64,000 nucleotides of DNA from Trebouxia sp. TZW2008 (lineage: Eukaryota; Chlorophyta; Trebouxiophyceae; Trebouxiales; Trebouxiaceae): assembly GCA_002118135.1 (NCBI GenBank), contig BDIU01000347.1:1-64000 (forward strand), given 5' to 3'. Below the pieces are notes generated by a model, which worked only from the letters and a program-made list of their open reading frames with translations, had not been told where the DNA came from and did not search any database. Position numbers and translations under genes: made by a program. Of this stretch, positions 2,974-62,275 are shown piece after piece. Numbering within the stretch: position 1 is the first letter of the stretch; each line of letters opens with the position of its first letter.

Positions 2974-5900
2974 ATGGCAGATGTGCAAGTCGTCAAGCAG
3001 CTCATAGACAGACTCAGAACAGAGGAAGCTGCAGCACAGGAAGCTACAGCTGAACAAATCAAGTACGTGTTACACATCACCAGCGCAATGCCCCACACTG
3101 CAGCATTATTCAACCGGCTTCTGTTGCATCTGCAGGGATTTGGCACAAAACAGCTTGGAGTATTGTACAGCATTTGGCCAAAATGGTGCTGTTGAGCCTC
3201 TTGTGGGGTTGCTGGATGACATCAACAAGCCAGTCACTGTCATGGCCGCACAAGCCCTGGGGTACTTGAGTGCTTCAGAGCCCTGCTGTACTCAAATCAG
3301 GTATCTTGAACTGCACATTCCTGAACTTGTCAGCCTTGCTTTCTATCTAGCTTTGCAGTACTAGCGCATGCATGCTTTTCAGAAGTTGCAGTCATGGCGC
3401 ATGCATACTCTACAAATGCTTGGTCAAGTTACGATCCTGCTGCTGAAAAGTTGACAGCGGACCTGTATTTTCCACTTACCACCCCCACCATGTCAAGGAA
3501 GCCATCAGGGGCATTGCCACATGTGCAATGAGACCAGAGTTGTGCCTACATTGTGACTTACTTCCCTTGCCCACATGACCTTTGTAATCAACATACAACA
3601 ATTTCTAGTTTGTTACCAACTCTCATTGCTCACACAACATGTGCAAATGCGCCACAATGATAAAACATCGCCTGCTGTGCTTGCACAGCGTCCTCAAAGC
3701 TGTGTGCGATTGCAGGGAAGCAAAAGCAGTAGCAAGTCTGGTGGCTCAATGACAGCCAGTCACTGCTTGTCCTGCTTACACATGCATAGCTGCTTCAAGA
3801 CTTTGTTTGATTGCAGGCAAGCAGGAGGAGTAGCTCATCTGGGGGCACAATGGACTCTGAGTTGTGACCTGCCCTGCTTACACATGCATAGCTGCTTCAA
3901 GGCTTTGTTCCTTTGCAGGCAAGCAGGAGGAGTAGCTCATCTGGGGCCACAAGAAACTCTGAGTTGCCACCTGTTCTGCTTACACATGCATAGCTGCTCT
4001 CAGACCAACTGCAGTTACGCCGCAATGGTACCTTGTTGCTACCTACTCTGTGTACAAATGCATAGCTGCTGCAAGGATATGTGTGTTTGCAGGGAAGCAG
4101 GGGCAGTTGCAAGTCTGGTCGCATTGCTGCAGTCAGGCCAGGAACTCCCATCAGGTCTTCTCAAGGCTGTGCTCAAGGTGAGACAAGCAGACAAAGATTG
4201 CCCATTTTGTTTTCCTGATTCTGCTTTGTCCTGGCAGCACCACTGCAGATACAAAATCACGTATCTTCATTATAGCGTTGACCATGATGCCTTGACGCAT
4301 TGTTGCATTCTGCCAATGTACACTGAGTGTGCTATTACATTGGCAGCCATCTGGCCTGATGCTTGAGCCAACTCACCATCTGCAGAATAATGCATGATCA
4401 ACAGTCAAATGTGATGAAGCAAGCTGGCCTGGAAGACAACGCTTGCACTCTATATGCCTTGCGCTTGTGCCATGACATGTAACAGCTATCACTTGAGCCA
4501 GTATCAGGCCTATCATGACCACCTGTGCTGTGATCATGATCTTTGCTATTACACTTATTTATCTCCACTAGGAGCAGATTGTCACCATCTCTAGATCTGG
4601 TTTGCAGGTGCTGCTGGGCTTGACTCAAGAACAGGGCAGCTGTGATGCAGTGCAGCAGGCTGGCGGCATCCCACGCATCATCAAACTGCTAGAGTATGCC
4701 AAAGACAAACAGGTGAGCCAGCATTTTCTGCATGGCCACATACATTGGGGTTGATGTTTGCATAATGCCACTTGTGCAGCAATGCCTTGAGAAGTTTCTG
4801 TGTGAAGAGTGCTGTTGTTGAGCCCTTTTTGTATGGCTGAGCCTGCTTCAGCGCAGTGTTTGTTGTATCTTGTACAAAGGATTCTCTGCACTTTGTAGCT
4901 GTGGTACATCAAATCCCACACTGCACTGTTATTACAGTTGTATCGCCTCACAATGAGGTTTCTTGTGACAACACATGTCATGTTCATAGGGTTAGGACGT
5001 CAGCATGGGTGAGACTGACAGGGGATGCTTGTCATCACAATTGTATGCCATCATTGCTGTTGGGTTGTTCTGTGGCTGTGCTGCAACCCTCTGCGGTACA
5101 GGGGCCTGTCCTGATAGCAAACTCTATTCACAGCTTGAGACTTTCAACCCACACAGTCTCACATAGATAGGTGATGCTGGGGACTGGCATGTGCAGACAT
5201 TTGGTGCAGTGTCTGCATGTTGTCTTGTTTGATGCAGGCAACTGAAGTACAACAAAGCGCAGCGCTGCTATTAGGCAGGCTGGCATTGTTCAACAGCTGC
5301 AAAGATGCAATCCGGGGTCAATTTGGCATTGTGACATTACTGAAGATGCTGGAGCGGCCAGGGCTGCCTAGAAGCTCCAAGGAAGTTGTGGTGCGCACGC
5401 TGTCAATCCTGGCAGTTGACAATGAAGTCAACCAAGACCACATGCGGTATGCCTTTCCATCACCTGCAAATGGAATTGCAGTCAGGCCCTTTTTTGCATA
5501 TTTTGGCGCTTAGGTCTCAGGCATCAGTTTGAGCTTGAAGAAACAACAGTTTCTACAAGAGTGTGTAAAGTAAATCCCCTTTGTAAGGACACTTGATGTA
5601 AGGTCAAAGCAATTGGGAGTCAATCAGTACATTCTGACTGCAGAGGTCCCTCCAAGTATGAACAATCTGATGTAAGGACGACTTTCTTGGTAACCAAAGC
5701 AGTCGTTACTAAGAGAACTCAACGTACACACATCTGCACTAGAGTCATGCATGACTATCGTTCAAGCTGATGCAATGCTAGCTGCCCGCAAATGCAGGGA
5801 GCAGTCCTGGTGATGCTGCTGGACACTATATGCTTTGATGGTGGCTGTGGCTGTGCCATGTATACATCACAGCCAAGCTATGATGCTACACTATATGTGT

Positions 5901-8900
5901 GAGCAAGGCAGCTAAAGCTATGCGTGTGTAAGAAGCCAAGCTGATGCAGCTCGAACTGTACCCATATGTAGGGAGCAGTATGCAATCCCAGTCCTGGTGA
6001 AGCTGCTGGAAGCTATGCCATTTGATGGCGTCACAGCTGCAGCAGCAGATGCCCTTAGGGCTCTTGCACTCAACAATGACGGCAACAAGACAGCCATCAG
6101 GGAAGCCTGGGCAGTTCCCTTGCTAGTCAAGCTACTAAGCTCTGAGGTATATGCACTGTCGTTTCTTAATTGGAGTAAACCGTTGTGATGCATACTTCTT
6201 CTTTCCTGATCAAGGGACAATTGAGAATGCATGATGGAGAATGCATAATGAGCAATGAGCAATGAGCAATGAGCAATGAGCAATGAGCAATGAGGGCAAC
6301 AGAACAGCCAGGGAAGCCTAGGCCATTATACCCCTGGTCAGAACACTATGCTGTGAGGTGACACCACCAAAACATTGAGATTTACCATGCTCCTCATGGT
6401 TTTGCAAACTGTGAGTCACAGTCATTGCAGAGTTGAAGACACACCGCGCGGTCCTGTCAGACATCAAGACCATAGCTGAGCTGCCTCCATACAAGCAAAT
6501 GTTTGTCATGCATTTGCTTTGTTGGGCAATTTCCTTGCTGGGCAGTACCCTTGCTGGTCAAGCTGCTGTTTTCTGAGGTCACTGCACCCAACCTCTGAGG
6601 TCAGGAATGAACATGACAGCAACCTTTCATATTGTTCATGCAGTTGTAAATGTTTTGGGCAGCAGACAGGAGAGGCTCTAGTCACTGCAGTCAACCACCA
6701 TGGAGTTGCCTGCCTGCAGATGGAGGCTTTAGTGATTGAGAAGGCAGTGCACTGCCTCAAGGTCCTGACCACTGGCAGTAGGCATTGAAGGGGTGCTGGA
6801 CTGCTTGCAGCTTCTGACCACCATGACTCCATTTAGCGGCAAGGCAGTCATCAATTGGCTGTCACACAGAAGTGACTGCCATGCAGATTGAAGCGTCAGT
6901 CATTGAGAAGGCGGTGGATTGCCTCAATGTCTTGAACACAGCCAATTATTCCGTGCGATGCAAAGGCCACTCATCACTACTTTGATTAGACACTGAAATG
7001 GTTCAGATGCAGGTTGAAGCGTCAGTCAGTGAGAAGGCCGTGGATTGCCTCAAGATGTTGATCACAGCTTATGAGGCCAACAAGGTGGCTCTGCACCAGA
7101 CAATGCAGTTGCGTTCCTTCAGGTTGACACGTCACCCATCAATAAGCTCCTGCATTGAACATCAAGGGGTCACTTATATGCAGGTTGAAGCTTCAGTGAT
7201 TGAGAAGGCAGTTGACTGTCTCAAGATTCTGGCCACAGCTAAGCATTGCCTTGATAAACAACCACAGCTGACAAGTCTGTTGAGATCTACATTGTGCTGG
7301 CACGCAGGTTGAAGCTTCAGTGATTGAGAAGGCAGTCGACTGTCTCAAGATCCTGACCACAGCTAATGAGGCCAACAAGGTGGCTCTGCTGACCAGCGCC
7401 TCTGGGCTGCCCTGCCTCGTGCGCCTCATGGAAACATCTACTGACCAGGTACCCATCTCATCAAACTGTTTTTGTTCAAAAAATAACTCAGTGAGGACAC
7501 AGCCTGCAGTGTCTTCCTCTCTCCAGACCTTTGCATGTGACACACAAAGTTCTGCAGGTCAAAGCCTCAACAAAGCAGCGCTTCCAGGCTGCCGTGCCTC
7601 ATACGCCTCATGGAAACATCCACCAACCAGATGCATTTTACCAAATCTCTTGAGCAAGACTCACAAAACCTGCAGACGGTTGCCTCGTCAGACCATAGTT
7701 GTCCTGTTTTACCGCAGTCCCTGCTCTGTGCGCCTTGTGAAAACCTCAACCGACCAGGTAGCTTCACCTCGCAATGTGACCTTGCTGTATGTGGCCTACA
7801 AAATCTGCTGAAGGCAATCATACCAGCTGGAAGGGCCTCTTTGAACATGTCACACAGAATCCTGAAAAAGCCATGCTGTATAACTGCCTTGCGCGCCGCA
7901 TGGAAATTTCTGTCGACCAGGTATGACCCACCCAGTGTGACTGACAAACCATGCAATGCACCACTTCGTTTTGGTGATTGATGCATCCTCCTTATGTAAT
8001 CTTGCCTGACCAGATTGATTCGCCGTCTGTACAAGTAAACGTTTGTACTTGACTCACAACACTGTGCTGTCTGTGCAGTTGGTGATAGAGCGAGCAGCAG
8101 CAGTAATCGGCAACCTGTCAACCACAGACCATTTCTTCTCAGCAATCAGAGAGGCAGGTGCCATTCAGCGCTTGGTGCGGCTGCTAGACTTTGGACCCAC
8201 TTCACGGACCACTGAAATTGCTGCTAAGACTCTAGCAAACCTTGCTAGTGAGAGCAGCAACAGGAAGGGGATACGGCTAGCTGGTGGAGTGCCACCGCTC
8301 ATGAGGCTGCTTATGGACAAGCCCAGTGAACAGGTTTGCCTCTTGCTTGTTCTCCCCTCTTCAGTCAATGTGAACCTCAATGCTTATGTCTTTTGTGAAT
8401 CAAGAGAAGGAATCAGCCAGCTGGTGGTATGCCTCTGCTCAGGCTGCTTATCGTCGAAAGCCAAGTGAACAGCTGATGACCCTGTCAGGGAGTCTGGCAC
8501 CATTTGCGCACCACAATTTGACCCCTCAGTGGTTCTTGTTCTCCAGTCTCGACAGTGTTGATGCTGATACTGGAAATGTTCATATCGATGGATTGTTGCA
8601 TGGTTGCTGCAGGTCATGCTTGCTAATGACGAAGCTCTCACTGACGTGTTCTTAGCATTTGATTGAACTTCTGTTCCTTGATTGCTGCTGATCAAAGTTT
8701 ATGTGCTTCAGGCCCCAAGGCAGCCAAAGCTCCAGTAGTCTCTGAGAGCAGTATTTGAAGATGGCTTGCTTATTCTCCAGGTCATGATTGCTGTTGATGA
8801 AGCGCTCAGGCGATTAGAGATCTCTGCCCAAGAGCGCAACGCAATCTTGGACGCTTTCCGGTACGCAGACGCTCGCAACGCAGCTGCTCTGGCGGCTGCC

Positions 8901-10571: not shown

Positions 10572-10597
10572 GTTGTGCAAAACGTTAATCAAATAAA

Positions 10598-21865: not shown

Positions 21866-22068
21866 GTTATTTTGACTGATTCATTGCATGACATTATATG
21901 TGAGAGGAGTGAAAGTACACCTTGCAGGATTGTATACAAGACTTGCGCCTTTGAAAATGAGTTTGTATGAAGATGATGAGTGTCTGGGCTCAGCTTGGCA
22001 ACTTATACGTTCACTACATATGCAGAATCGACTTGGCATATATATATATGACATCATGCATACCATTT

Positions 22069-28512: not shown

Positions 28513-31500
28513 ATGACAATGCAAATAAGCATGCAATCCAGAGCCTTTGGCAGCTGCTGGCTGCAAACACCCGCCTGGCAGCGCCCGCATGCACCTCGAT
28601 GTCATGCCGTCAGTTGCAAAGCAGCAGCTTCATATGTGTGGAGGCCAAGGCTGCAGAGCGGCAGCGTCTCCTTGCGCAGCCACTTGCGGTGTAGCCTAGC
28701 GAAACCACGTCGGCAGCAATTCAACAAACATCCAGCACGCTGCCAGGCAGCACAGCCACACTCCGAAGGCCACAGTGCAGGCCAGAGTCCAAGCTCAGAT
28801 ACAGCTTTGCCATTGCCAGCCAGTGATGCATCCGTGGACCCTGCCAGACGAGCCTCCAATGCAGCTGCATCAACTTCAGCTAGTGCATCAGCATCTGTTG
28901 AACAGCAAGGCCCAGACAAAATCAGCTTCATGAGACTCCTCACGAATCCATTAGCGGTGCTGGCAGCGCTCTTCCGCCGTATTGCTTATTTCTTCAAAGG
29001 CATTCCTGCATTTGTAGCAAAGGAGAAGCTGCAACGCTTACACAAAAAAGCCCTAGATGAGCCGAGAAACGCAGAAAGGTGCATTGTCTGCCCTCAACAA
29101 GCTCCCTTGTTGTGGTGTACCTGCAGGATTTGCAGTTCTTTGTGGCTTTTCTCAGGATTCATCAAATGCAGCATATTCCGCTGCTATCAAGGTCCCTTGA
29201 TGCTAGATGTGCTGTACCATTGAAGCCTTCCAGCATGAATCAAACATGGCATTTTACCATTCAAAGAAGTGTGTCATATGCACCTCATGATGCAATTTGT
29301 GCTTACAGCATGGTTTGGTTCATTGCAGGTCACAGCAGTTTTTGGCTGAGCTCAACAAGCGTGACTCTGAGGCTGTCATAAAGCATGTCGACTCGGGCTC
29401 AATGGCTGTCAACTCAGCAGTGATTGTTGAATACATGAAGGCATTGGTCAAGACTGACAAGATCAAACAGTTCAGTGGCGAGAGTGTTGTCAGGTAGTGC
29501 TATGACCTGATGTATGTCTTCATATAGAGCATTCTGGATGTTTTCCGACATAAAGTAAAGAGCCCTTGCCGAGCAGCTTGCCAGACCGGCCTGATCGCAC
29601 AGCAGATAATGATGCTGGCATTTTTTCTGTGCCTAATGAGCAATTGCACGCAGCGTGTAGTGTGTGCCGTGATTATGTCCATGGGTTTCAGCTGTGAACA
29701 AATCATGTGTTTATACAAACAGTGTAATCGTCAGCAGATTTTGCACACAAGGTCTGCGCATAGTTGTCACCTGCCATCTCAAAGTTCTGCTCAACTGCTG
29801 CTGCATGGCACACAGATGTCATTTGTTTTCTTGAGGTTCAATGCATGAAACACTGTGCAAGGAATAGCATGAGTAGTGGTTTTCGGTTGGCACCGTATTG
29901 TAATGTATGTGCCTGTGCTCATACAAACAGCTCATGACGGTCATCCTGACAGCAGTATCAACCACTGCTAGGATGTTCAGCATACATGCTGCATGATTGT
30001 GGTACAGCCATTGTGATGCGTTACCTCACGTCTTTGCATACTGCTTACGTAGGAGTGAAGGGGAGACTAAGACCCTTAGTCAGCTGTTGAAGGATCTTGA
30101 GAGCAGGGCACAGGGTGAAGAGGGTCATGCAGAGCCTGCTGGTGCATCTGTTACCCGCCCCTTGCATGTTGTCATACAGGTCAGTGACAATTGGATCTGG
30201 CCCTCAATGTACTGCAGAGCCTGTTGGTTTCACTGTCATCCGCTCCTTGCATGCAATTCAACAGGTCAGTGACAACTGCATTTGGCCCCTTGGTGTACTG
30301 CAGCCCTGCGTATGTGTAAACCTAAGCTCATACAAAAGTACTGACTTACTCATACACATGCAACCTCCTGTCAAGGAGGGTTTGACGTCACCAGCCCCTT
30401 GGGTGTGAACCTACAGGTCAGTGATGACCAAATTTGGTTCTGAGTGTATTGGAGCCCTGCATATGTGTAAACCTAAGCTCATACAAAGTAGGGCTACTGC
30501 CCGACTTATACGTGCACATCATCCTTGTTAGGAGTGTTTGACGTCACTTCGCCCCTTGCATGTAGTCCTACAGGTGGCATCTGCACCTGGTCACTCCCTT
30601 GAATGCACACATTGCCGTTGACAGCATCAAGCCACAACAATGCATTGCCTGTGGACTTGACAGAATGCGGGGCTGCAAAGCACCAAACAGCCTGAATATA
30701 GCGCCACCAACAGCAATATTTGGCCTGTTCCCCATGAATGGCAGTTCTCACTGTGGCTGCCTTTCATGCAGGAACCAAAAGCAAAAGGCAATTGGGCTGT
30801 GGACATAGTCACGACCGTGCTATCCTCTGCTGCTTCTGTGGTATTTGTGATTTTAATACTCAGCGCTGGGATGCATATGCTGAGAAGGCAGGCAGGAGCA
30901 GGGGCAGGAGATGGGGCGTTTTCAGGCGGCCCTGCTTCTGCCCTCTCATCAGGCTCAACCTTTGCTCCTAAAGAGTACAATAAGGTAGGGCATTCCACAT
31001 GCAGCATGGATTGGTGCTACTTGTTTTTCCCTAACAACAGTGCTCATAGGCTGTTCTGACACCAAACAGCCATGCTGTGGGGGGAGGGGGCGGGGGGTCC
31101 TGGGGGTGCAGGTGCAGGGGGTAGGGCGTTTGCGGGTACAACAAGGTAGCCAGTCAACATGTAGCATGACTTGATGCTAGTGTGATGTTGTTGGCTTGGC
31201 TTGGACCACCATGCTCTGAGGGGGGGAAGAAGGTGCGAGTGGCAGGGGCAGGGGCTTTGACGCTTGCAAACTGCCCTGCTTCTGCCATCACGTGAGGCTC
31301 CATTTTTGCCCTTGCAGAGTACAACAAGGTAGGGTAGTCCCATGCAGCATGAATTGGTGCTTCTGTAAGATTGGTCATAGGCTGTTCTGACATCAAACAG
31401 CCAAGCTGCGATCTGATGCATCGCGCTTAGGCCTGCACAGATTAACTGCATCAGGCAGACCAATTTCTGGCTTTGAAAACACCAGACTCTTGCTTGAATA

Positions 31501-34500
31501 CACAATCTCCTGATGTATTGCAGGAGAATATGCCTGAGAAAAATGCCAAGACCTTCAACGATGTGAAGGGCTGCACAGAGGCCAAGATGGAGCTGGTAGA
31601 GGTGGTCGAGTTTCTGAAGAACCCTGACAAGTTCACCAAGCTTGGTGGCAAGTTGCCCAAGGGTGTCTTGCTCACTGGGGCCCCCGGTGAGTCTTAACAG
31701 ACAATTGCATTACAAGATGACACTTTTTTGCCAAGCTAGGGGGCTCTTCTGGTGTATTGTCTGTACACAGCTTGGTCATGGCTTTGTCGTCTTTGTCTGC
31801 TGTCTTGTCTTGTCTTGTCTTGTCTTGCGCCGTCGCGCTCTACAGCTTTGCATATGCAGCCTGACATGTGGCTCTCACGTGTGAGCCCTGCAATGTCTGC
31901 AACAGCAGAGATGCTTGATTTTACTTTTAGAATGATGGATGGCATGTTTGTTTGACACTGCTGCATGTTTATCAACGTGCACATCCTGTTGGGCTGCATG
32001 CATGCTGCTTAGGGCCTGTGGGGTTTTTAGGTACAGCATACAGCAGCAGTACACTGCCTTCAAGCAACTCTGCCGTAAGGTCCTTCACAATCGTGCATGG
32101 TCATTGGACTCGTGAAGGCTTTTCTGAACTTGAATACTTCAACATGAATAAAACAGCTTGGCTCGTCTTTATGAGCTTCATCACGTTATGATTCAATTAC
32201 TGCTGATCCGTCTGCAGGCACTGGAAAGACTTTACTTGCCAAGGCTGTGGCTGGTGAGGCTGGCGTCCCCTTCTTCTACAGGTAAGCAGAAATAACGTCT
32301 TGTCTTGTTTGACATACTTATAACTTGGCGACGCAGCAATATAGCAGCATTGCAACAAGCAACTGTTGTGTGAGTTCAAGTGCATCTTGCATCAGCCCAG
32401 TCTTTGTTGACACCAGCTTTGTCACAAAGTACTTGCTCTCAAAAGCCTACTGAGCATATATACACGTTTTGTATCTCTTGTGGGATTGCAATATGCGCAG
32501 TCACAACAATGTTTTGTGATCACTTGTTACCTGTGGACTGTAGGCCTGTGATTGAGTTTGAGTAGATGTGTACACGCTTGTATGGCTGGGATCTGTGATA
32601 CTGCAGTCAGCGCAAATCATACCAGATTGGTGTCATTACCATTCCTGTGCATTGCAGGGCCAGCAGTGAATTTGAGGAAATGATTGTGGGAGTGGGTTTG
32701 TGCTGTGTGCGCAGCCTGTTTGCCACAGCCCTCATTACCTGTTGTGATACAGCCTCAATCATCAACAACACCATCCTCATTATTTGTGGTTCGTGTACCG
32801 TAGGGCTGGCAGTGAACTTGAGGAGATGTTTGTGGGAGTGGGGTCGCGCCATGTGCGCAGCCTGTTTGCCACGGCCAAGAAGAAGGCGCCCTACGTTGTG
32901 TTCATTGATGAGATAGACGTGCTCGGAGGTGATCAAGCCAATGTTCACACTACTTGTCCGCTGCAGGGCTGGAAGTGAGTTTGAGGAGATGTTTGTGGGA
33001 GTGGGCTCTCGTCGTGTACGCAGCCTGTTTGCTGCAGCTAAGAAGAAGGCGCCCTGCATCGTGTTCATCGACGAGATAGATGCCATTGGAGGCGACCGCA
33101 AGCAGTGGGAGAACCACACGCGCAAGACATTGAACCAGCTCCTAACTGAGATGGATGGATTTGAGGCCAATGAAGGGGTCATTGTCATTGCTGCTACCAA
33201 CTTTGAGGTGCCTATTTGCGAACTCTGCATTGTCTACATTGTGTTTTTACTGGGTGCAAGCACATGGTGATGTACACATCGTGCATGCATCCTTGAATCT
33301 GCTGCTATTGAGATGGACGGATTTGAAGCCAATGAGGGCCATTGGTCGTGGCTGCTACCAATTTTGAGGTGCTTCCTTGCTCCCATGCACTCCATTGATT
33401 GCACACATTGCTGCTGTTGATGCTCAGTGCAAGCAGCAGGAAAATCACATGCGCAAGATGCTGAAGCAGCTGCTGACTGAAAAGATTGAATTCGATGCCA
33501 ATGAGGGCGTCACTGTCATGGCTGCTACCAACTTTGAGGTGCCTCCTTGCATTCCTTGCATTCCATTCATTGCAAGCAGTGTTAACATGGCTGGGTGCAA
33601 CCACATGGTGATGCACACATCATGTATGCAACCTTGAATCTGCTGCTCACTGAAATGGATGGATTTGAAGCCAATGAGGGCGTCGTTGTCATGGCTGCTA
33701 TCAATGTTGAGGTGCCTCCCTGCAATTCTTTGCACTTGCGTTGCAGCCATCGCTGCTCCTGAGGTTTAGTGTGAGCAGACGGAGAGCATTCTTTGCAGAC
33801 GGCGTTGCTTCTGCGGTTTAATGCAAGCAGACGCACATGTGCCTGTTGTACAGCGATGTACAGAAAGATCTGCTGATCCACTGCTTGCAAGCAATGGCGG
33901 CGCACAGGACTGTTGAGCCAGCTGCACGGAGATGCATGTAAAGTGTGTAATCAGTTCTGGGATCATTGACCTGGCTGCTGCAGTCTCACAAGTACGGCTT
34001 CAGTTGATTGATGGCATACTTAATCAAGTCGGCTCAGAAGCTTTGCCTAAGCTGCATTGCTTTGATGTCAACAAGGACGGTTTGATCCTGCCATCATCAG
34101 CCTCCCATGCTTGGCTTGTTTGCATGTGGGCTAATGCTTTGATGCAGGTTTTGTTTTGTAGTCACTGCACACTCAGTCATTGACTGCAGAACAGATCTCC
34201 GCCAAAGCGTTTGCTTAAGAGGACCCATTCAGATGAACAGATTTACTGTCAGTTGTGGCATGGTTGTCATGCCTTTTGTACATTAAGCATTGGCTTCAGA
34301 GCAGATTGCTATATCATTGGTTCTTCAAGTCTTGCTTTTACATGCCAGTCCCACGGCCCTCGCTTGCTCAATTCTTGATGTCAAATTCTGTACAGCTGAT
34401 TCAGCAGCTTCTGAAATATTTGGTTGAGTCTGAAGCGATGAGCTTGCTTGCTTCAACCTGTGACAGTGATCAAATGAACTGTGCTTTTCAGCCTTCACCA

Positions 34501-37500
34501 GTTCAGAGCAGCAGCTGCCAAGTAAGATGCATGCAGTTGACCTCGGCAAAGCGCCGTTGAACTGCCTTGCCTTCATACGACCTTTCGGTATGATCATGTA
34601 AGCTGTTCTTGTCAGGCTCAGCCAACTCAAAGCAGCAGCTGCCGACTAGATTTGCATGCAGTTGACCTCAGCAAAGCTACCTTAAACTGCCTTGCCTTCA
34701 TACGACCTTTTGGTATGATCATGTGAGCTGTCCCTTTCAGGCTTGGTCAACTCGTAGCAGCAGCTGCCGTCTGAGATGCACGTGATGTCAGCAAAGCTTC
34801 CTTGAGCTGCCTTGCATTCCTGTGTCCTGGCTTGTACTGTACAAGGACACTAGCAGCTTGGTACATGCACACTGACTCTCTCGCTGGCCAATACATGCTT
34901 GTAGTTCAAGCCAAAAGCTGGAATTGCACACGCCAGCATTCAGCCTTGACCTCCACCATGTCAAGTCAGGCGCCCTTTGATGGTCAAAGATGCAAGGAGA
35001 GGGGGCAAGGCAGTTGTAGTTGTTATGGGCTGAGCTTTGGTGGCAGGCAAGCTCAGCAAGGTGGCATCAGGGCTGGGCCTATCACCAGGCGCAGCCGGTC
35101 GTTCTCCCCTAGTATATAGGGGCTTTGATCATGCCTCAGATGTAGCCATCAGGTCACAAAGCCAAGGGTACCACGGCTTGTGTTCCTTTGTCTGTCTATA
35201 CATATTAGTTTCATCGTTTTGCATCACTTTCTTTTTCACAGCATGCCTTGTGGTGCAATATGCATGACTGGGTTGTTTTGACGCATGCAGGAGACGCTTG
35301 ACCCTGCGCTGACCCGGCCCGGGCGGTTTGACCGGCATGTGGCTGTGCCCATGCCAGACATCAGAGGCAGGCTGGAGATCCTGGAACATTATCTACAGGT
35401 GAAGATTGAAGCAGCTTTCTTGCTGTGTGGTACAGCAACGATGAGTATACTATCATTGTGCGGTATATGTTTCAATGCTGTTTGCACGTCGCAGCAAAGG
35501 TGTTCATTGTGTACCAATAGAGCCTGTATTAGACGCCAAGCTGGTTGTCCCTGTTTCATTTCAGCTTTCAACAGCGATATTACACAAGCTTCTTCCTTGT
35601 GAGGCATACGATGACCAGGAGCAGAGCGACAAACCAAAGGATAGCAGAATGAAGGCAGCAATGCTAGCCCCGAGACTCCTGGTTTCTGCGGTGCTGAGCT
35701 CAGTGACTTGGTCAACAAGGCTGCATTGATGACTGCCGAGCACCACAAAATGCATTGATGACGCTGTGTCAATAGACAAAACGCTTTGATGACGCTGTGT
35801 CAATTGATCCAACGGCAAAGTGGTGACTGCAGGATACGCCAAAGGACCGCACGGTAAATGCTGCACCAAATGTGCTCACAATTCCACTGTCTGAAAGCAA
35901 CAACTGAACTAAATGCAGGTCAAGCCAAAGGACAGCACAGCGAATACAGCAATGCTTGCGCGTCAGACTCCTGGTTTCAGCGGCGCTGAGCTGGGCAATC
36001 TGGTCAACGAGGCTGTGCTGATAGCTGCTAAGTACAGCAAAGTGCTTTGATGGTCATGGATGATCATGCTGTGTCAAGTGACCTCAGGACAAGATGCTGA
36101 CTGCAGGACAAACCAAAGGACAGCACAGTCGATGCAGCAATGCTAGCGCGCCAGACTCCTGGCTTCAGCGGTGCAGAGCTAAGTAATTTGGTGAACGAGG
36201 CTGCGTTGATGGCTGCTAAGTACAGCAAGCCCAAGATCTCTGCTGACTTGCTGGACGAGGCTCGAGACAAAGCTATCATGGGCGTTGAAAGAAGGTAAGA
36301 CACCTTGTGTAGAACTCCAAACAAGCAATCAAGGGCATGGACAGCAGGTCACAAAGTCTCAGCGGAGTGAAGCACAAGAGCACTTGCCATAGTCGCAGTC
36401 TTCATGCATCAAGTCAAGCATGGTGACAGCAGGCTTGAGCTGTTGTTGAGTGCAGCTAGTTTTACAGTTGTCCAAGCTGATCTGCTGAATGATGTGATGG
36501 CTTGAGATTAAGCTATCAAGGCTTGAGTAGCGTCACGACGGAAGCACAACAACAAGACGAGAATGCAATAGAACCTGCGCTATTGTGGATCAAAGCATGT
36601 CTAGGGACTACATGGGCTGCTGGGCACACTGGTAATTCAACCTGCTGTCGTGCTGATACAATGCATGTAAGCATTGTCCTTGTCCGGCTGCAATCTTTCA
36701 AGGACACTGTGACAGTCATAATGGATGACATGGATACCGCATATCAACCTGACTTGCCTCATACTGCTTACTTGGTGGTGAGTACAGCAAAAGTGACCTG
36801 GCCAGCTGCAAGTTCTCTCACTGAAACGCCTCAAGCCTTTTGAGTGCGGGTCTCTGGGGCTAGTCAGGCCATTTTGGTTTGTTTGGGTCACAGCAAATGG
36901 CGTGAAGGTCATCTTCTGCGTGTCAGGCAGATAGTTTGCCATTAGCCCATATCTGCTCTATACCAGTTTTTGAGAACAAGTCTTTGAGTAGGTTGCAAGC
37001 ATCTCAGCTGAGGTGATACTGACAGTACACTGGCTATTGGTACTCTGGCTGTTGGTACACTGGCTGTTCAATTCAGCTGCAGCAGGTGTATGAAAGCCCA
37101 TGGTACAGACACAAGAGTCACGCAGGCCAACAGCCTATACTGAGTCAGGGCATGCTCTAGCTGCCATGCACATGGAAGGGGCAGGTCTCATACACAGAGT
37201 TTGCACAAGCGTGGTCACTTTGGCATGCGAGCGCCACAGGATCACATGGTGTTCCTGCTTGGCTGCAACAGTGGCTGCTGTTTGCAGGTCCATGGTACAG
37301 ACACAAGAAGCACGCAGGCTAACAGCCTATCATGAGTCAGGACACGCTCTAGTTGCCATGCACACAGATGGGACAGATCCCATACACAAGGCCACCATTG
37401 TGCCCCGAGGGCATGCCCTTGGCATGGTGTCACAGGTCAGTCTGCGCCTTGGCCTTTGCCAGACCTTTGCTGCATTCTGTACGTCCACCTAGTCTGTGCA

Positions 37501-48591: not shown

Positions 48592-49641
48592 TCACTCCCA
48601 ATGCACAGTGCTCAGCCGAATGTATTTGTTCTGTGCAGTCTCACAAAAGAATATCTCTGCCTCACACAACATAAAATCCTTTCCCAGCTGAACCAGAGGC
48701 ATGGGAACGCCATAACTGAGAGTACACTGTGCAGCGTTGTGCTGTACTGATCGCAGCACAGGTGCCTCCTGGCCTATATCAGTCAAAATAGTGTTGTGCA
48801 CATGTAACTGTGCTGCATTTGGCTTGAGAGACATAATTTGCTTTGCACTAAGCCGTGATTGCAGCACACAGTCATACTTCAAGGCGTCTGCCAGGTCTTC
48901 TGCAGAATTGTTCAAGGACGAAAAAATGGAACCTGGGGGAAGCACAAAATGTTCCAGGCAAAGAAGAATGCAAATTGCAGGATAAAAAACAGCTGTTGAA
49001 ACGATATCAAAAGTATCTGCAACATGCAAATTAGCCAACCCTTTTGTGTCAAGATCAATTCCATGACGTATTGAGGAACACAAGATTCTGGGTCTGTCAT
49101 TCTTTTTTTCTTTCACCCTTGCAAAGCCAAAATTGGCCAGCCACCCGTGACTCAGGTCAAAAATATTGGATCTGAAGCTGCTGTCAAAGCACACAAGGAC
49201 CATTGTCAGCTTAGACCAGTCATGCCTTTTGAGGAGCAACAAGTCAGCCAGACTTGTGATGCTTATAGTCAGCACTGAATGGTGAACTGCATGGCGCAGC
49301 GCCCTGTTGCATGCCAGCAACGCTGCGAAGGACGCAAAAGACAGACAACTTGTCATTCTTGGCACCTTACACAGGACGTCAGCAAGCATGCAGGTCTCAG
49401 ACACACAAGGGAGGTCCTTGGCATTTGAGAACAGGCTGCATGACGAGGAATTGTATGTATAGGCATAATATGAGGTGTGAATGCATTCTCTGCGATACCT
49501 TTAATAGGACGCAAGTGCACAGGAGATGCAGCAAACATACCGTGTAATTCTGTGGCGTACAACTCTGGAAACTCGTCGCTTGAAGGCAAAGATCAGCATT
49601 AACAGGCGGATCAGAATTTTTGACCAGAAGCTTTCGACCAT
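48592..49641 (-). CDS. F-box-like protein, paralogue 3
   Basis: Two exons, 49641-49541 and 49435-48592, join in phase to 314 residues. Exon 1 gives MVESFWSKILIRLLMLIFAF then a basic stretch. Exon 2 has SETCMLADVLCKVPRMTSCL, ALLACNRALRHAVHHS, LKRHDWSKLTMVLVCFDSSF, LKPNAAQLHVH and the end NKYIRLSTVHWE. These blocks match paralogue 1 in order. The copy reads as intact. F-box assignment has the same uncertainty as for paralogue 1. Confidence 0.65.
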
Positions 49642-51001: not shown

Positions 51002-54000
51002 TCATGTGCTGTAGGGTATTGAGGAGAATGTCTGACGAGCTTGCTTGACAAAGCCCTTTGCAGCTGCCATGTGTGCCTCATCCGCCTCGACTGGTAGCAC
51101 TGCCACTTTTGGCTCAAAACCCAGCAGTGCTGATGCCTGCATGCACAGGCTTTGCTTGTGAATGCGACTTTCGAGATGGGCTGTATTCTGTTGAGGCGTA
51201 AGGCAGAGCCGCAACAGATACAAACGTTACACACAAACATCAGCAAAATGGAAAATCAATGGCAGCGCTGCCAAATGTAACTCAACACCTGATAATTGCG
51301 GTCTGCATGCAAACAGCTTGTTAAACACAATCAGGCATCATATTTTGTGAATATGGCAGCTGCAAGCGAACACACCATCAGTACAAAGCGGAAAATCAAT
51401 GCCAACACTGCCAGCTATTGCTCAACAGCTAGCTGGGCTGCTAGCTGCATTCACAGATGTGTTGAAAATTTCTAGTACATCAACATCTGTTGAGATCCTC
51501 AACAGCTATGTCTCACCTGGTTGCCAGCTTGCAAGCCTGTGACGTAAGCCTTCTCTTGACTAAGCCCTTTGGCCCCATGTGTGCCAGGGCCCTGTGCAAG
51601 CCAGTCCCCTGCCATAAACAGCCCTGGCAGGCTGAGAGCTGTTGGGGGCATGCTGTCATGTGACCCTGGACTGAATGCAGTCACTGCTCCAGCAAATCTG
51701 CAATAGACAAAGAACTGCAATGCCTGCTGCCTAAGCATGAGGCCAAGCTGTAGCAACATTGGGGCTTTGCTGGCATATGGATCAGGGCCCTGTGCAAGCC
51801 AGCTCCCTGCCCGTGAACAGCCCTGCCAAGCTAAGGGCTGTTGGGGGCATGCTGTCATGTGACCCTGTACTGAATCCTGTCACTGCTCCAGCAAATCTGC
51901 AACAGATAAAATATTGAGATTGCTGATGGAGGCATGCTGTGAAGCGATATGAGACTTACCGATGTCACCACGTCAGCAAAGTATGCAACATAAAAGTGCT
52001 GGAATGACTGTTGGAGACATGTCAGCAAAGCTGCTGCAGCCAGAATGACTTGGCAATGGATGGTTTGAATGACTGTTGGGGGCATGCTGTCATGTGAGGC
52101 TTGACTGAATGCTGTCACTGCCCCAGCAAACCTGCGACAGACAAAGTGCCAAATTGATTGTTGGAATCAAATATCACAAATCTTGTTTTTTGTAGAAAGA
52201 CAAGCTCAGGGCTGTGGAAGTCAGGCTGTCATTTGACCCTAGACTGAATGCTGTCACTGCACCAGCAAATCTGCAACAAACAAACCTGCAGCAGACCCTT
52301 TGTAAAGGGCAGTGTATTGATGACCTGAGGGCATTACAGTGTTTTGACCTGTTACGGACCGCACACAGATTGGCACGTACAATAGAGCACAACAACAGCG
52401 TAACAACTGTATGACATAAACATGTGATGTGCTGATGAGAGGACCTGAGGACACAGTAGCCGTTGACATTCGTGTATGACATTGGCGATATGCTGGACAT
52501 CGAAACGACAAACTGGACATAAGAAAACTTAGGAAAATAGCAGCACGGCAACACTTTACGTCAAAATGTGATGTGTGCCATCAAGAGCACCTGAGCACGC
52601 TGGAATCCTTGACTTGGCAGAAGCCATAAGCAGGCTGGCAGGTGGCCAGGTAGGTGTGCAGGGTACGCTGTATTAGCTGCTCGTCTGATAAGCCCAATAA
52701 GCTGGTTGCATTGTAGTAATCCACCTCTACTACAGTGCCAGGCTCATTTGCATACTCATCCTGCACGTGACAATAGTGTACAAGTCAGTCACCAATGCAT
52801 GTGCCAGTATAGCAGGTTGCACAGCTGAACACGTCGCAGCACATTTCAATGCATTGGCAGCTTCAGAAATACTTCTCCCCTGCACTGTAACTGCACAGCG
52901 TCAACTTTTCTTTATTCAGTTTAGTCTGCACAACACAACAAGCTAATTGCGCTGCATGCGTTGCTCATCTGTGCGCTTCCCAACAGGCTATCAGTCCTTG
53001 TCATTTCATTCATTCATTATAAACGCAAGCTAGGCAGGCTCAGCAAGCCCAACTAGGTGCGTACAGAAGCAATCAAGCGTCTCCAACCAGTTCGATCATG
53101 TGCTAACCAGTCCTTGTGCTGTCAAACGATTGGGTGCACTGACCTCACAAACTCACAGTCTTCTGCTGCCAACATCGTAAGGAATGGCTTAGAATGCGCA
53201 TCTTGCAAGATAATCATCCAAAGTTTGTCGGACTTACAGAAACAAGATTTCTCTGAGCAGACGCGTTAGGAAGCATGTCTACTGTCAACTAGCAATTTGA
53301 AAAGTGTAAAGAAATGCGTGCTTGCCTGTAGGCTGTTGAGGTCAAAGAAGGTGGCTCCCACATTGTCATCAAACCTTGCCAAAACATTAGAGGCGGTGCC
53401 GGCCTGCACCCTCTTATCTAGCCACAGCCGGACAGCAGCTACATCCACAGTGCCCAAGTTCTTCACCCTAGACAGCTCCTGTCATGCAGCATATGATGTC
53501 CAGTCAGCGTGAAAGCATGAAAGCACAATAACTTTTGCCAATGCTGTGCTCAAATGCTTGTCCTTAGTTCATTCCTGTCTAGCCACAGCTGGACAGCAGC
53601 TGCATCCACAATGCCCAAGTTCTTCACCTTGGCTAGCTCCCGTAAAGACAACCAAGACAATCAATGCAACAGCTGTAGCCAACTTGTGTCAAGACAAGCA
53701 GTGCAACAGCTTCTCACAAAGATCATAATCAGCAGTTTGACCCTGGCCATGGCAGTCGAGGCAGAGCCGACGTGCACCCTCTTATCTGGACAGCAGCTAC
53801 ATCCACAGTGCCCAAGTTTTTCACCTTGGCTAGCTCCTGTGCAGACAACTAGTCAATGTACCGATGCTTGCCAGGTTATTGCATTGATCAACCATTTGCT
53901 GCCAATCAGTTTGTGTGTAAAGCATACGGACTGTGTGTTTGATAAGAGGATGCCAACAGGGCAGGCTGTCAGCTTCTGGTGAAGCTGCAATGGTGGCCTG

Positions 54001-57000
54001 CATCAAGCTTGTGATGATGTGAGTTGAAGCAGGCTTTGGTCAACAAGGGCAGATTGCATGTGACGGCAGGCATACAAAGCCTAATGGGACACTTACAGGG
54101 CAGACACAAAGGTCTGGTAAGGCTACAGTGGTAGCTTACTTCGAGCGACCATGCATCACAACAGAAGCAATTGCAAAGGAACAAGTAAGTTATGTATGAC
54201 AGCATCTAGACATGGCCTAGGCTGCTGTCAACGCTTGCGTCAGACAATATGCATATGTGTAAGCTGAGAGAGTACCTACAGGGAAGGTTGATAGGTCTGA
54301 TGAATTTGCAGTGATGACCTTTCTCAACTTTCCTGACTATGCGCAATAACAGAAGCACTTCTCAAAGAAGACAAGGTCTATGCCACAGCGCCTAGACAAG
54401 ACCCAGGCTGGTGTCAAGGCCAACATTGCTGGTGATGGTCAAAACAGGCAACTTACCAGGGTCTAGATGGGAAAGTTAACTTCAGGGCAGACCAACAGGT
54501 CTGGTGAGGCTGCAGCCATGATTTGCACCAAGCTTGTGTCACTACAGCGTCTGCACATGAGGACGTGATGCATGTCGCAGCAGGGGTTGACAGGCTGAGA
54601 GAATCCCTACAGGGCAGGCTATCAAGTCTGGTGAGGCTGCAGTAATGGCTTTCACAGCCTTTACTCCAGATCATGAGAAAGCCATTAAAGTATGAACGGA
54701 GGGGTACAGAATACGTCAAGGCTGTTGCCAATACTGTTGCACAAAGCAAACCATGTAAAGGCTGAGAGGATACCTACAGGGCAGATTGATAGGTCTGGAG
54801 AGGCTGCGGTGATGGCTTGCATGGCCTTTACCCCAACTGCAAACACCACAGCATCCCCCTCGATCACTTTCTGCTGCCCTGACTTGCTGCTCACAATCAG
54901 CCTGCGCAAAAAGAGAGATTGTTTTGCAGCACTTGTGCAGCCATTGTTGCAAAGTGGTTTAAGCCAACATCTGTGTTGAGCACTGCAAACACCACAAGGT
55001 CCGCCTCTGCCACCTCTTGCTGCTCTGACTTGCTGCTTACAGTCCATCTGCATCAAATTGAGCAGCTGGGATTCAGCTACATATGGTCCAAACATTTGAC
55101 GTGAAGGCATACAGTGACCCCAAGTTTTAGATGTTGTGATAGGTTGAGCAGAAGTGCAGGGCTTGACTGCTGCACACTGTTCACAAAGAAACAGCTAGCA
55201 CAGTGAGCATCCAACCATAAAGCCAAGCAGCAAAATGTGTCATGTTGGTTCAGGCAAGTCTACAGCAGCATAGGTGATTGAGCGTGATCATCTGGCACGT
55301 CAAGTCTGTTCAGCAACATGTGTTTAGAGAAATGTATAATTGAGCAATCTCACCTGGCGCCTTGCAGTTTGCCGTTTGTTTGGATTTGCTGAACTCTTCT
55401 TCCACCCAAAATCTGGCCTCCCATGGCTTCAATTTCTTTGACAAGAGGCTTGAACAGGCGTTCAACTACTGGGCCTTTACACCACCTCACATCAAAATCT
55501 GGCTGCAGAACATACAGTGAGATTAATGATCAACGTCAAGATGCTTGCCAATGAGTTTCCATGACTTTGCATACATGAGCAGGGGACTGCCCCCAAACTA
55601 ATCTGTACATGGTGTGGCTTGCAGCATTAAGCTGTGTGCATAAGTTCAAAATACTTGCTTTGACGAGCAAGCACAAAGCAGTCGAGGGCCGCAGGGACTG
55701 CAGCCACAGATAATATCATGTTGCACTCAGGCTTTCTCTCATGTAGTACTTCATAGCAGCAGGCTGTATGCAAGAGCTCACAGCCATTGCTTGTTGAGCC
55801 AACAAACAGCAAAACCTCAGAGCTTTACCCTGATGTGCCAACACAAAGTAGTACAGGGCTGCAAGGGCTGCAGCTGCAGATACTGTCATGCTAAAACCAG
55901 CATTCATGCATGTGATTTAATTAACACCATCAAGCTGTGTGCAAGAGCTCAGTGCAATTGCTTGATGAGCCAACAAACAGCAAAACCTCAGAGCTTTACC
56001 CTGATGTGCCAACACGAAGTAGTACAGGGCTGCAAGGGCTGCAGCTGCAGACACTGTCATGCTGAAAACAGGCATCCATGCATGTGATGTGATTGACATC
56101 ACCAAAGTGTGTTTACCTGATGAGCCAGCACAAAGTAATAAAGGGCTGCCAGGGCAGCAGCTGCAGATAGTTGGCTGGCTGGGGCAAACAGGGTCACCAG
56201 CAACATGGGCTCCAAGAACTCCCTGGCATCATAGTAACATCTGACATTTGGAACAGTCAATTGCTGCTGTTTGAACCTACTGATACTGCCCGTGAGCCCG
56301 CCTGACGTGCTTTCTCAATGAATTTTTGAATGAAGCACAGCACATGGCCCTCTCAGCAACATGCTTGGTGACTTGCAACTGCTGATGTCAAAGACAATCT
56401 GTGTCTGAGCCAGCGTTGCAAGCTGACACAAAACATGGTTCTGCAAACTGCCCAGCAGAACATAACAACGCTGTCCAGTGCTGTGCATTGCTTTGCTGCA
56501 GTTGATGCTCGAAACTGCACGACATGCATCACTAGCACAAATGAACAAGTCAGAGCAACTCAAGGGTGCAGGGCAACTGCTACAAGGCCAGATACCAGAG
56601 CTCAACTTCATTATGTTGACCAAAGAAGAGCATTAGCATATTTCAGCCAATCATGAGGGGTGCTTTTCAATATGTCAAGTCAAGAAGAGCATTGATATAT
56701 ACCTTAGCAGTCTTGATGACACTCCCTTCTTCTGAAAGAGCTCCAAAGCAGAAACCTGGTCATAATGCCTGCATGTGGGAACATTTCTAAATATATGCCT
56801 GTCACGTGACTGGGCACATCGTCAAAAAAATAATGTAGTCATCTCTTGATAAAAGGACACTTCATACCTTGATCTAAAGACAATGCAAACAGGACCCAAT
56901 CACTGGATGTTGTCTGCAGTGGTGCTTGGGAGTAGCACCACTTTGATGTAAGGAAAGTTTTCCTGGTAACCACAGCATTTGTTATCAAGAAGAGTCACTG

Positions 57001-58497
57001 CACCTGTAAGCCTCTTGGCTGCTGTCAACCTCCAATAAAGGGCCTATCAGCGGCAGAGCAGTCAGCCTGTCCCAGATGGGCAATTTTGTGAAGTATGGGG
57101 AGGTGTACAGAAAACTGCCAAGCGGTGTTGGCAGCCGAGGCTCATGCTGGAAGATTGGCGACTGCACCTGCAAATGTTGCAATGCTGCTTGTGTAATGTG
57201 CTCTGGAACTCCTTCAAGGCAGTTTACTGCTTCCATGTGCGCCTAGCAGGGTTATGGAACCACATTAGCAAGCATAAAATCAGTTGTGTCAAGGTAGGCG
57301 AGGCGTATAGAAATCTGCCCAGAGATGTCGGCAGGCGCAGCTCATGCTGAAAGATTGGTGACTGCACCTGCAAGGGTAGCAATGCCAGCAATTACAATGA
57401 AATACCACATGTTCAAGCACGCATGCTAGGTGTGTGTGACCCAAGTCCCGTCTTGCCAGGCAGGCTTGGAGCGTCATGGTAAGAATATCTGATGCTTGAA
57501 CGCACCTGTAGGTGTAAACATGCTAGTAATGGAATTGAACTCTGCAGCTGTCTGCAGGCAGTCTGCTGCTTCTGTATGCAGCTAGCAGGGTTTTGAAAAC
57601 TCACTAGCAAACAAGTGTGTGAAGTGCAGGGTGTATAGCAAGCTGCCTAGAGTTATTGGCACCCGGCTGCAAGATAAATGACTGCACCTTTTGGTACCGT
57701 ACAATGGCTGACTAGCAACATGCAATGACTGGTCTGATGGCAACATGTTTGCGCTTTGCGTCTTTGCCAGTGCTTGGTGAAGAGTGCACCCTTTGATATG
57801 ATGAGCGAGAGGACTCTTTCAAAAATTTAAGTTCCCGCTTGATAGGACAGTAACACATCACACATCTACTTTGGAGGCGCAGCAGCAAAGTCAGAAGTGA
57901 GGTGAGCACCTGCAGACCATCAGGAGCCCAAAAGCTGCTGCGCGTCCAGTCTGTGAAGGGATCTTCAATTCCAAGAGCATCGACCAAAGCATTGATGTTG
58001 CTGTATTGATACCAGAACCTGCAGTGCACCAGCAGCCAGCGTGTGGTAATTCTCATGCAACAGACTGCTGTGAGCAGCAGACATTCTTATGTGTATTCAG
58101 TACCCTTTAATTCCCGCCTCAACTGAGCGGCCACCAGGTGTTCGCCAGCCTGAGCTCAACCCCCCAGGAGTTTCGCTGGCATCCAACACGGTGACTTTGA
58201 CTCCGGCCTTGAGCAGAGCATATGCAGCGCCAAATCCGCCCCAACCGCCGCCAACCACCACTGCGTGCTTCGCAGCACCTGTGTTGAACAACAATAGCCT
58301 CAACGTGGGAAGAACAGGCAGCACGTGAAGTCACTTGATGCACGGCATGCCGGGTTTTCTGCCCTGTTCCCGCGCGTACCTGCTGGCATAGGCGCTGCTG
58401 TTGTCGCATAGCATTTGAATTGTTTACGAGCCTGTCGTCGGCCTTGTCTGTTATGCTGCACGTAACAGACTCCGGTGCAACGAGAGAGACTGTGCAT
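51002..58497 (-). CDS. Plastid FAD-dependent oxidoreductase, amine-oxidase/carotenoid-desaturase superfamily
   Basis: Twelve exons join in phase to 549 residues: 58497-58380, 58278-58104, 58018-57910, 57167-57004, 56768-56703, 56222-56117, 55502-55354, 54901-54778, 53478-53326, 52760-52591, 51697-51517, 51136-51002. Residues 1-40 are basic and Ser/Thr-rich, like a transit peptide. A dinucleotide-binding fold follows (VVVGGGWGGFGAAYALL, then VLDASETPGG). The substrate region has FWYQYSNINALVDALG and PVVERLFKPLVKEIE. The C-terminal FAD signature is GLFMAGDWLAQGPGTHGAKG. Substrate is unknown; a carotenoid or other isoprenoid is inferred from family. Intron 9 has a GC donor (ACAG|GCAAGC). Most introns hold exon fragments. 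It is head-to-head with the BASS gene. Confidence 0.88.
51750..52275 (-). repeat. Partial copies of FAD exon 11 upstream of the exon
   Basis: On the minus strand, fragments at ~52275-52185, ~52140-52040 and ~51900-51770 repeat the acceptor and start of exon 11 (FAGAVTAFSPGSHDSMPPTA with changes). Fragment 3 continues to LSLAGLF, then diverges. The intact exon follows at 51697. Further scraps lie near 51955. Confidence 0.88.
53047..53112 (+). repeat. Dispersed repeat C, copy 2
   Basis: It matches 48490-48562 over about 60 bp with roughly one change in six. It lies in intron 9 of the FAD gene. Confidence 0.65.
53560..53845 (-). repeat. Two partial copies of FAD exon 9 upstream of the exon
   Basis: Fragments at ~53845-53745 and ~53645-53560 translate as ELAKVKNLGTVDVAAVQ and ELAKVKNLGIVDAAAVQLWL, against ELSRVKNLGTVDVAAVRLWL in the intact exon (53478-53326). 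Both keep a GAGCTAGCC start after an AG. Confidence 0.9.
53950..54665 (-). repeat. Array of FAD exon 8 end copies downstream of the exon
   Basis: At least four to five fragments (around 54665-54590, 54535-54480, 54330-54280, 54135-54085, 54010-53950) repeat ATCACTGCAGCCTCACCAGA-type sequence and the CCTGTAGG border, from exon 8's last 50 bases. Spacing is about 100-200 bp. Intron landmarks such as CTCTCAGCCT recur too. Confidence 0.8.
54985..55060 (-). repeat. Partial copy of FAD exon 8 start upstream of the exon
   Basis: CAGCAAGTCAGAGCAGCAAG and TTGTGGTGTTTGCAGTG (minus strand) mirror the exon 8 start (54901 down). It contains VVFAV but then diverges. Confidence 0.85.
55620..56075 (-). repeat. 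Three copies of FAD exon 6 end downstream of the exon
   Basis: Fragments at ~56075-55970, ~55905-55790 and ~55730-55625 repeat the final part of exon 6. The first two read SAAAALAALYYFVLAHQ exactly as the exon does, and the third is more decayed (SVAAVPAALDCFVLARQ). The TGATGAGC or TGATGTGC spacer is copied with them. Confidence 0.92.
56845..56998 (+). repeat. Dispersed repeat B, copy 2
   Basis: AAAGGACACTT, then GATGTAAGGAAAGTTTTCC and TGGTAACCACAGCA match landmarks of 5566-5720. Here it is antisense to the FAD gene, whereas copy 1 is sense in the ARM gene. Confidence 0.6.
57285..57690 (-). repeat. Two partial copies of FAD exon 4 start upstream of the exon
   Basis: Fragments at ~57690-57620 and ~57370-57290 repeat the GTGCAGTC acceptor side and the CATGAGC..CG..GCCAACA and CTATACACC-type end of exon 4 (57167-57004). 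They frameshift internally. Confidence 0.75.
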
Positions 58498-61800: not shown

Positions 61801-62009
61801 GCTCAGGTTGCTTGGTGCTACTGCAGGTGGGCATGCAGAACAGCGCACTAGGAGCTGTATTGGCTGCAATGCACTTCCAGGACCCGTTGACTGCAGTGCC
61901 CTGTGCTCTCTCTGCATGCCTGCATTCTTTGATGGGGTCTGCCCTGGCAGCGTTTTGGAGATCAAATGACAACACTGCAGAAAAAGCTGAGACCCTAGCT
62001 GCATATTGA
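58898..62009 (+). CDS. Plastid bile acid:sodium symporter (BASS) family carrier
   Basis: Exons 58898-59434, 59647-59774, 60051-60252, 60719-60917, 61315-61391 and 61827-62009 join in phase to 441 residues. An internal GTGAGT..CAG intron (59130-59216, 87 nt) can be removed without shifting frame, giving 412 residues, the usual size. The N terminus is a Ser/Arg-rich transit peptide. Family blocks are ALTMLAMGTTLSLEDF, SCPGGTASNVVTFLANADVA, the run ALSVMMTTVSTLAAVVMTPV, VILGAALNQKF and RTNSIEVGMQNSALG. About nine membrane helices are expected. Plant BASS members carry pyruvate, glucosinolate precursors or glycolate across the plastid envelope with Na+. The substrate here cannot be told. The FAD gene diverges from it. 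Confidence 0.9.
59929..59985 (+). repeat. Dispersed repeat C, weak copy 3
   Basis: CTGGGTACAGAAGCAATGGA and an AACAGTTCTG end resemble copies 1 and 2. It lies in BASS intron 2. Confidence 0.4.
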
Positions 62010-62275
62010 TGGGCGCTTTCTTGAGTGCTCAAACAATGTGGTCCTTCTGCTTGCCTGCATTGTCTGATGGGGTCTGACCTGGCAGCATATAAAAACGACA
62101 TGACAACGTTGCTGAAACCACGGCTGCGTATTGATGGGCACTTGCTTGTGTACAGAAACAGTGTGCTCTGTCTGCCAGCCTGCATTCTGTGATTGGGCTT
62201 GGCCTGGCAGCGTTCTTGAGGTTGCATGACAACAGTGCAACTCAAGCTGAGACCATTGATGAGCACCTGTCCACA
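62010..62275 (+). repeat. Two copies of the BASS last-exon end
   Basis: After the stop at 62009, ~62040-62140 and ~62160-62270 repeat CTGCATTCT.TGAT.GGGTCT.CCCTGGCAGC and ATGACAAC..TGC, then GCTGAGACC, from the end of exon 6. They must lie in the 3' UTR or beyond. The second copy retains SACLHS-like codons but no frame. Confidence 0.88.

Follow-up and report, generated by a model that had tools for sequence, protein, structure and literature searches.

The first 64,000 nucleotides of contig BDIU01000347.1 (positions 1-64000, here called the window) of the green alga Trebouxia sp. TZW2008, whose genome comprises 68.5 Mb in 527 contigs, contain genes around whose exons partial, decayed copies of the same exons are found. 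Eight genes were modelled by splice-aware protein-to-DNA alignment, three within the window (FTSH11, FAD, and BASS) and five elsewhere in the genome. FTSH11 consists of 13 exons at 28531-39713, the last of which was extended to the end of its open frame at 39740, and its protein has its nearest named relative in Trebouxia sp. C0010 (65%). The FAD/amine-oxidase-like gene, hereafter FAD, lies on the minus strand with 12 exons (58497-51008; nearest named relative in Trebouxia C0009, 79%). The last exon of BASS, stop codon included, is at 61827-62009, and the BASS protein is closest to that of Trebouxia C0010 (84% over 82% of the query). In the eight genes, the internal exons have a median length of 167 bp and the introns of 480 bp. 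The 71 introns have TGCAG acceptors, in which A is scarce at -8 to -14, and the branch-site motif is weak.

A tiled self-comparison of the window yielded 82 direct pairs at distances up to 2 kb versus 2 inverted ones, and two shuffled window controls gave 0 and 0 direct and 0 and 1 inverted pairs. The copies in the window, including those in a gene here called ARM, are listed below.

3682..4122, plus strand: ARM gene, copy array with TGCAG acceptors (self-comparison and sequence reading)
6707-6772, 6881-6942, 7007-7069, and 7180-7242, plus strand: ARM gene, upstream copies (GCAG acceptor and 5' part) of the exon starting near 7304
7576-7630, 7719-7760, and 7884-7923, plus strand: ARM gene, downstream copies of the 3' part of the exon ending near 7448
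30213..30575, plus strand: FTSH11 exon 3 (30053-30179), downstream copies with 3' part and donor
31242..31408, plus strand: FTSH11 exon 4 (30772-30984), downstream copy with homology 93 nt into the intron
32653..32917, plus strand: FTSH11 exon 7 (32967-33207), two upstream copies with acceptor and 5' part
33293..33778, plus strand: FTSH11 exon 7, three downstream copies with 3' part and donor
34467..34819, plus strand: FTSH11 intron 7, intron-only tandem array with a unit of 124
35628..36040, plus strand: FTSH11 exon 9 (36107-36294), two upstream copies
37087..37196, plus strand: FTSH11 exon 10 (37288-37435), single upstream copy
51783-51910, 52073-52146, and 52201-52284, minus strand: FAD exon 11 (51517-51697), three upstream copies
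53578..53840, minus strand: FAD exon 9 (53326-53478), two upstream copies
53945..54668, minus strand: FAD exon 8 (54778-54901), downstream copies with donor
54982..55044, minus strand: FAD exon 8, upstream copy
55661..56112, minus strand: FAD exon 6 (56117-56222), downstream array with donor
57281..57385, minus strand: FAD exon 4 (57004-57167), upstream copy
62037..62254, plus strand: BASS last exon, downstream copies of the 3' part, past the stop codon

The initial annotation had reported copies in five genes. DNA self-comparison bore this out for FTSH11 exons 3, 4, 7, 9, and 10 and for FAD exons 4, 6, 8, 9, and 11, and added FAD exon 12 weakly; the copy claimed for FTSH11 exon 12 came down to a weak match of 46 bp (34.6 bits). 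The ARM arrays at 3682-4122, 6707-7366, and 7394-7923 were also seen in the self-comparison, but the exon numbers given for this gene are those of the initial annotation; two of its downstream copies, 7719-7760 and 7884-7923, are weak (36.5 and 37.4 bits). The copies of the last BASS exon exist but sit downstream of the stop codon and are not intronic. No copies of 'exon F' were seen at the 51-bp tandem repeat (25745-25844) of what had been labelled an 'unknown TM gene', where the repeat appears intronic, before an acceptor. This gene (24719-26971) is a PIG-M-type glycosylphosphatidylinositol mannosyltransferase by Pfam (PF05007, E 8.2e-19).

The observation is confirmed, and it extends beyond the window. 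In 200 kb from three other contigs, a non-random sample of 20 stretches of 10 kb on contigs first met in the Arm search, there were 174 direct versus 9 inverted short-range pairs, distributed over 18 of the 20 stretches; direct repeats make up about 11% of this sample (21,984 of 200,000 bases, as the sum of rows). In whole-genome protein searches, exons of FtsH, HSP70, ClpB, and Cpn60 were likewise accompanied by nearby partial hits covering a segment of the query that the exon itself also matched. By our reading, 12 of 13 of these hits fit the pattern of a 5' part upstream and a 3' part downstream, with one unclear. The five genes modelled outside the window were taken from this set, and copies thus occur in genes on several contigs.

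In the eight modelled genes, 35 pairs have an upstream copy, 33 a downstream copy, and 1 a copy between two exons, while 62 involve no exon and 10 are inverted. The upstream pairs include the acceptor in 31 cases, start inside the exon in 4, and reach the donor in none; the downstream pairs reach the 3' end of the exon in 31 cases, end inside it in 2, and reach the acceptor in none, so that the opposite border was reached in 0 of the 68 one-sided pairs. The aligned pieces are mostly 60-160 bp long, with a median offset of 165 bp (exon-related pairs up to 260 bp apart). The statement that upstream copies carry the acceptor and 5' part and downstream copies the 3' part and donor was correct, with none reversed among the 35 and 33 pairs. 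As an independent rule, the orientation did not hold up. It follows largely from the geometry of border-crossing local duplication, because, as long as the exon stays intact, a copy spanning one border can place the acceptor piece only upstream and the donor piece only downstream; the orientation therefore points to local direct duplications.

Placement relative to the parent exon, which had been named beforehand as a test, is non-random. At a threshold of at least 40 bits, 43 repeat families were counted: 31 at an exon border, 3 within an exon's span, 9 confined to introns, and none covering a whole exon. With random placement of equally sized units, 32% would touch one border, 61% would be intron-only, 4% would fall inside an exon, and 3% would cover a whole one. 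The border share among border and intron-only families is 31/40, or 78%, against 34% expected (p 2e-8; p 2e-9 against random placement when all are counted, 34 of 43 families). Copies flank 17 acceptors and 16 donor-side ends, one of the latter belonging to the last BASS exon, and 32 of the 142 internal borders, more than a fifth, have a copy. An intron array at 3475-3881 of L036, with blocks of 64-66 bp and gaps of ~74 bp, resembles the exon families but is exon-less and is perhaps an intron-encoded RNA.

Fifty-two copies were collected, among which two FTSH11 entries were misplaced (exon 9 at 7804, exon 7 at 4825). In the 47 copies (4,326 bases) retained for codon-position and indel analysis, the difference by codon position is 10.8, 9.0, and 23.7%, and, of 60 indels, 6 have lengths divisible by three and 54 do not. 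In the 16 families with at least two copies, the changes private to one copy number 71/64/83 by codon position and those private to the parent exon 6/4/48 (only the misplaced exon 9 entry was dropped here). This difference indicates that the copies evolve without coding constraint and that the parents are constrained exons. The copies are noncoding relics; the reading frame expected of a functional alternative exon is not kept in them, as both the indels and the 71/64/83 distribution show. Splice sites are nevertheless largely preserved: AG is kept in 22 of 25 upstream copies and GT in 21 of 24 downstream copies (the two misplaced entries and BASS were dropped from this and from the flank-class tests), in agreement with the predicted accumulation of decoy sites. 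Among 313 pairs, after removal of low-complexity pairs and offsets below 40, most show 70-90% identity. Since only 2 of them reach at least 95%, the data suggest that the copying was mainly a past burst, although assembly collapse of young repeats could hide recent ones.

Two proteins bear on which splice sites are used. P0126 (305 residues) corresponds letter for letter to FAD from the end of exon 1 through exon 8, followed by the parent acceptor of exon 9 at 53478, and P0242 (250 residues) corresponds letter for letter to BASS exons 3-7. Both come from another source, contigs marked 'lgn' of 1900 and 1179 bases, which we take to be public read assemblies, and the proteins look transcript-derived. 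Because P0126 joins the parent borders exactly, its transcript appears to use those borders and to skip the copies flanking FAD exons 4, 6, 8, and 9; this evidence is indirect but precise. The claim that the fragments stay intronic is supported to this extent, by the lack of coding constraint and by the exact use of parent borders in the two transcript-like proteins, and an enlargement of introns by the copies is plausible. At FAD exon 8, two donors are present at a spacing of 4 nt (54774-54778, minus strand), and P0126 uses the second, which shifts the frame into exon 9 and ends at a stop.

The homology usually ends close to the exon on its intron side. At a threshold of 50 bits, it extends a median of 14 nt upstream (21 nt or less in 17 of 21 pairs) and 12.5 nt downstream (24 nt or less in 14 of 20), and these ends depart from even scatter (Kolmogorov-Smirnov D 0.74 upstream and 0.55 downstream, with pairs that are non-independent). 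A position-wise match profile was made for 28 of 32 families, after the misplaced entries, the exon 10 entry, and copies below a 17-of-25 match were dropped. The outermost upstream copies (13 families) match their parents at 0.78-0.88 across the first 40 exon bases and at 0.54-0.56 from -7 to -15; from -16 outward the match is 0.25-0.32, which is background, as unrelated acceptors give 0.24-0.27. For the outermost copies on the downstream side (15 families), the match is 0.82 at +4 to +6 and 0.33-0.51 farther out. An annotation-free scan of repeat edges counted 75 YGCAG motifs in the first ten bases inside the edges, compared with 23-49 per ten bases outside and 41-60 further inside.

The spacer between copy and parent is 24-108 bp long (14 nearest copies). 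Compared with the outer flank of the copy, head-to-tail families being excluded, it gives z below 2 in 14 of 15 acceptor families versus 7 of 12 donor families with a value, whereas flanks simulated to decay as fast as the copies would still give z near 9-15. By our own classes, intron homology continues past the splice signal in 3 of 17 acceptor versus 10 of 16 donor families (Fisher p 0.013), and homology covers the whole unit including its intron part in 3 of 17 and 8-10 of 16, respectively. The border-crossing tandem duplication that had been proposed thus stands as regards pervasive direct partial copies, but intron homology past the splice signal is present in only part of the families. 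Within arrays, the inner spacers align in 4 of 8 (z 3.7-14) and fail in FTSH11 7 and 9 and FAD 9 and 11.

Several causes of the edges were considered and rejected. Decay alone is contradicted by the simulation, with inner array spacers aligning in 4 of 8 arrays and failing in 4. A spacer made of decayed exon continuation gave a mean z of 0.58 (standard error 0.18, 28 families), part of the FtsH exon 3 spacer matching the exon. TGCAG microhomology is common but not over-represented (179 observed versus 201 expected), and for reverse transcription halting at the branch point there is no fixed end and the branch consensus is weak. Within the fetched DNA, the flanks and spacers of 32 families match mainly local sequence. 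The outer flank at FAD exon 4 holds an interspersed repeat, present at 38393-38461 and 57412-57479 in opposite orientation and also in L014, L015, and L020; the copy at 57412-57479 lies directly upstream of the FAD exon 4 copy.

The explanation we favour, to which we would give an even chance, is local direct-orientation copying followed by a splicing filter under which a one-site partial copy is silent. Exon definition requires two splice sites at exon distance, and the duplicated splice-site experiments of Reed and Maniatis reportedly support this requirement. Local direct-orientation DNA copying would have hit the genome mainly in the past, and copies crossing one exon border would persist in the intron because each brings only one splice site and, without a partner site at exon distance, would be ignored by exon definition. 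Acceptor copies would persist mainly without the branch-point zone, the parent keeping its own, and so be silent from birth, while an acceptor copy with this zone would be a working decoy. Donor copies would be tolerated with or without flank, because donor signals are short. Once retained, the copies would decay under neutrality, making the intron longer and leaving decoy sites behind. Such a filter could account for the one-site content, the neutrality, and the acceptor/donor contrast; the role of exon definition as the filter is our inference from these patterns, as is the idea that acceptor copies lack the branch-point zone because only such copies would have been viable at birth.

Several results weigh against this explanation. 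Starts inside the exon are expected to be at least as common as acceptor starts, but were found in 4 of 35 upstream pairs, a scarcity for which the splicing filter does not account. The acceptor/donor contrast is soft, since by homology length it is only 3/17 versus 8/16 (p 0.07), and random flank controls reach z 2 in 4 of 28, and the weak donor flank matches are therefore uncertain. Parent third positions have changed beyond the equal-age expectation (6/4/48), and codons with a single change at position 3 are synonymous in 251 cases versus 21 not. A diverged-allele origin of the copies would explain this excess of synonymous differences, but the divergence it implies seems too small for unalignable introns.

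Plain head-to-tail tandem duplication with random ends and neutral decay, in which exon parts stay visible since the parent exon is unchanging, is an unlikely alternative as a general account. It fully fits some families in which the homology runs through the intron part, namely ClpB exon 11, BASS, FTSH11 exons 3 and 4, the donor side of FtsH exon 3, and HSP70b exons 2 and 4. It would leave the flanks at z near 9-15, contrary to the 14 of 15 acceptor families below 2, and the unalignable inner spacers of 4 of 8 arrays and the uneven intron-side ends do not fit it either. Plain tandem duplication and decay does not explain everything, as on the acceptor side homology as a rule reaches just 0-21 nt beyond the exon, and the spacer next to the parent is mostly unrelated to the outer flank of the copy.

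Just these ends would be expected if copying were targeted to splice signals, one end of the piece being set via splicing, exon chromatin, or RNA-templated repair. The clustering of ends near the exon (17 of 21 upstream pairs end at most 21 nt away and 14 of 20 downstream pairs at most 24 nt), the limit of homology at about -15, the flat divergence within the copy, and the high-identity arrays of L027, which also begin 4-5 nt before a CAG, are consistent with it. We nevertheless regard it as quite improbable: no mechanism is known, the end is not fixed at the branch motif, whose consensus is weak, and several donor families extend far into the intron. The same low standing applies to its genome-wide form, a splicing-linked burst in which the splice signal determined the intron-side end of exon fragments (as a rule 0-21 nt past the acceptor and 3-24 nt past the donor), the fragments were pasted in direct orientation a few tens of bases from the parent, and introns grew by copies of their own exon edges.

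Old copies could have been held similar to the parent by gene conversion or unequal exchange confined to the exon block under constraint, and both the coincidence of the sharp ends with the end of constraint and the similar divergence among copies of one array are in line with this; conversion in tracts was rejected, with no clustering and no gradient, and we consider the explanation very unlikely. An assembly artefact from mixed strains or haplotypes can hardly be responsible: overlapping diverged contig ends can mimic partial repeats and young repeats may be hidden, but the copies are frameshifted and codon-neutral, the spacers match in 4 of 8 arrays tested, and the parents are identical letter for letter to two proteins from another source.

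Other repeats in the window include a dispersed repeat in both orientations (22834-22966, 26424-26479, and 40144-40440) and a CACGG short tandem repeat at 23657-23789. Three related long open frames lie on the minus strand (40885-41832, 43093-43758, and 48592-49500), with 67-79% DNA identity in parts; a Pfam scan of two of the three gave no match.

Tandem exon duplication likewise repeats exon sequence directly nearby, but involves whole exons with both splice sites, often alternatively used, in contrast to the 0 of 43 whole-exon families here. Short intragenic duplications, some crossing exon-intron borders, also change intron content; here, the modelled genes keep their exon set, the extra piece is intronic, and in most cases the homology breaks off at the splice signal. 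In the relevant passages of two reports (PMC4974935, PMC2891723), tandem duplication is treated as a source of new introns, and in the AGGT-segment model of intron gain (Rogers 1989) tandem exon copies likewise supply splice sites. In that model the copy is at the ends of a new intron, which it creates, whereas the copies read here lie inside existing introns, the BASS copies apart. Introners, as portrayed in the pertinent part of PMC9860276, also change intron content genome-wide, but as one element across many genes, whereas the copies described here each derive from the exon next to them. The related alga Asterochloris is given nine introns per gene in PMC6652019, in the main text of which no word beginning 'exon' was found. 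In full-text searches of one library of open-licence papers, we found neither a description of the oriented border-copy pattern nor one of copying linked to splicing or exon chromatin.

The copies provide a dense natural record of how genes may absorb local duplication by leaving copies in introns. The favoured explanation predicts that a lone decoy site is ignored and that a decoy acceptor with a branch-point zone is not tolerated. The record is relevant to intron growth and, since the decoys look like genuine exons, to gene prediction. Splice-bounded ends, should they hold in young copies, would suggest that the copying itself is linked to splicing or exon chromatin.

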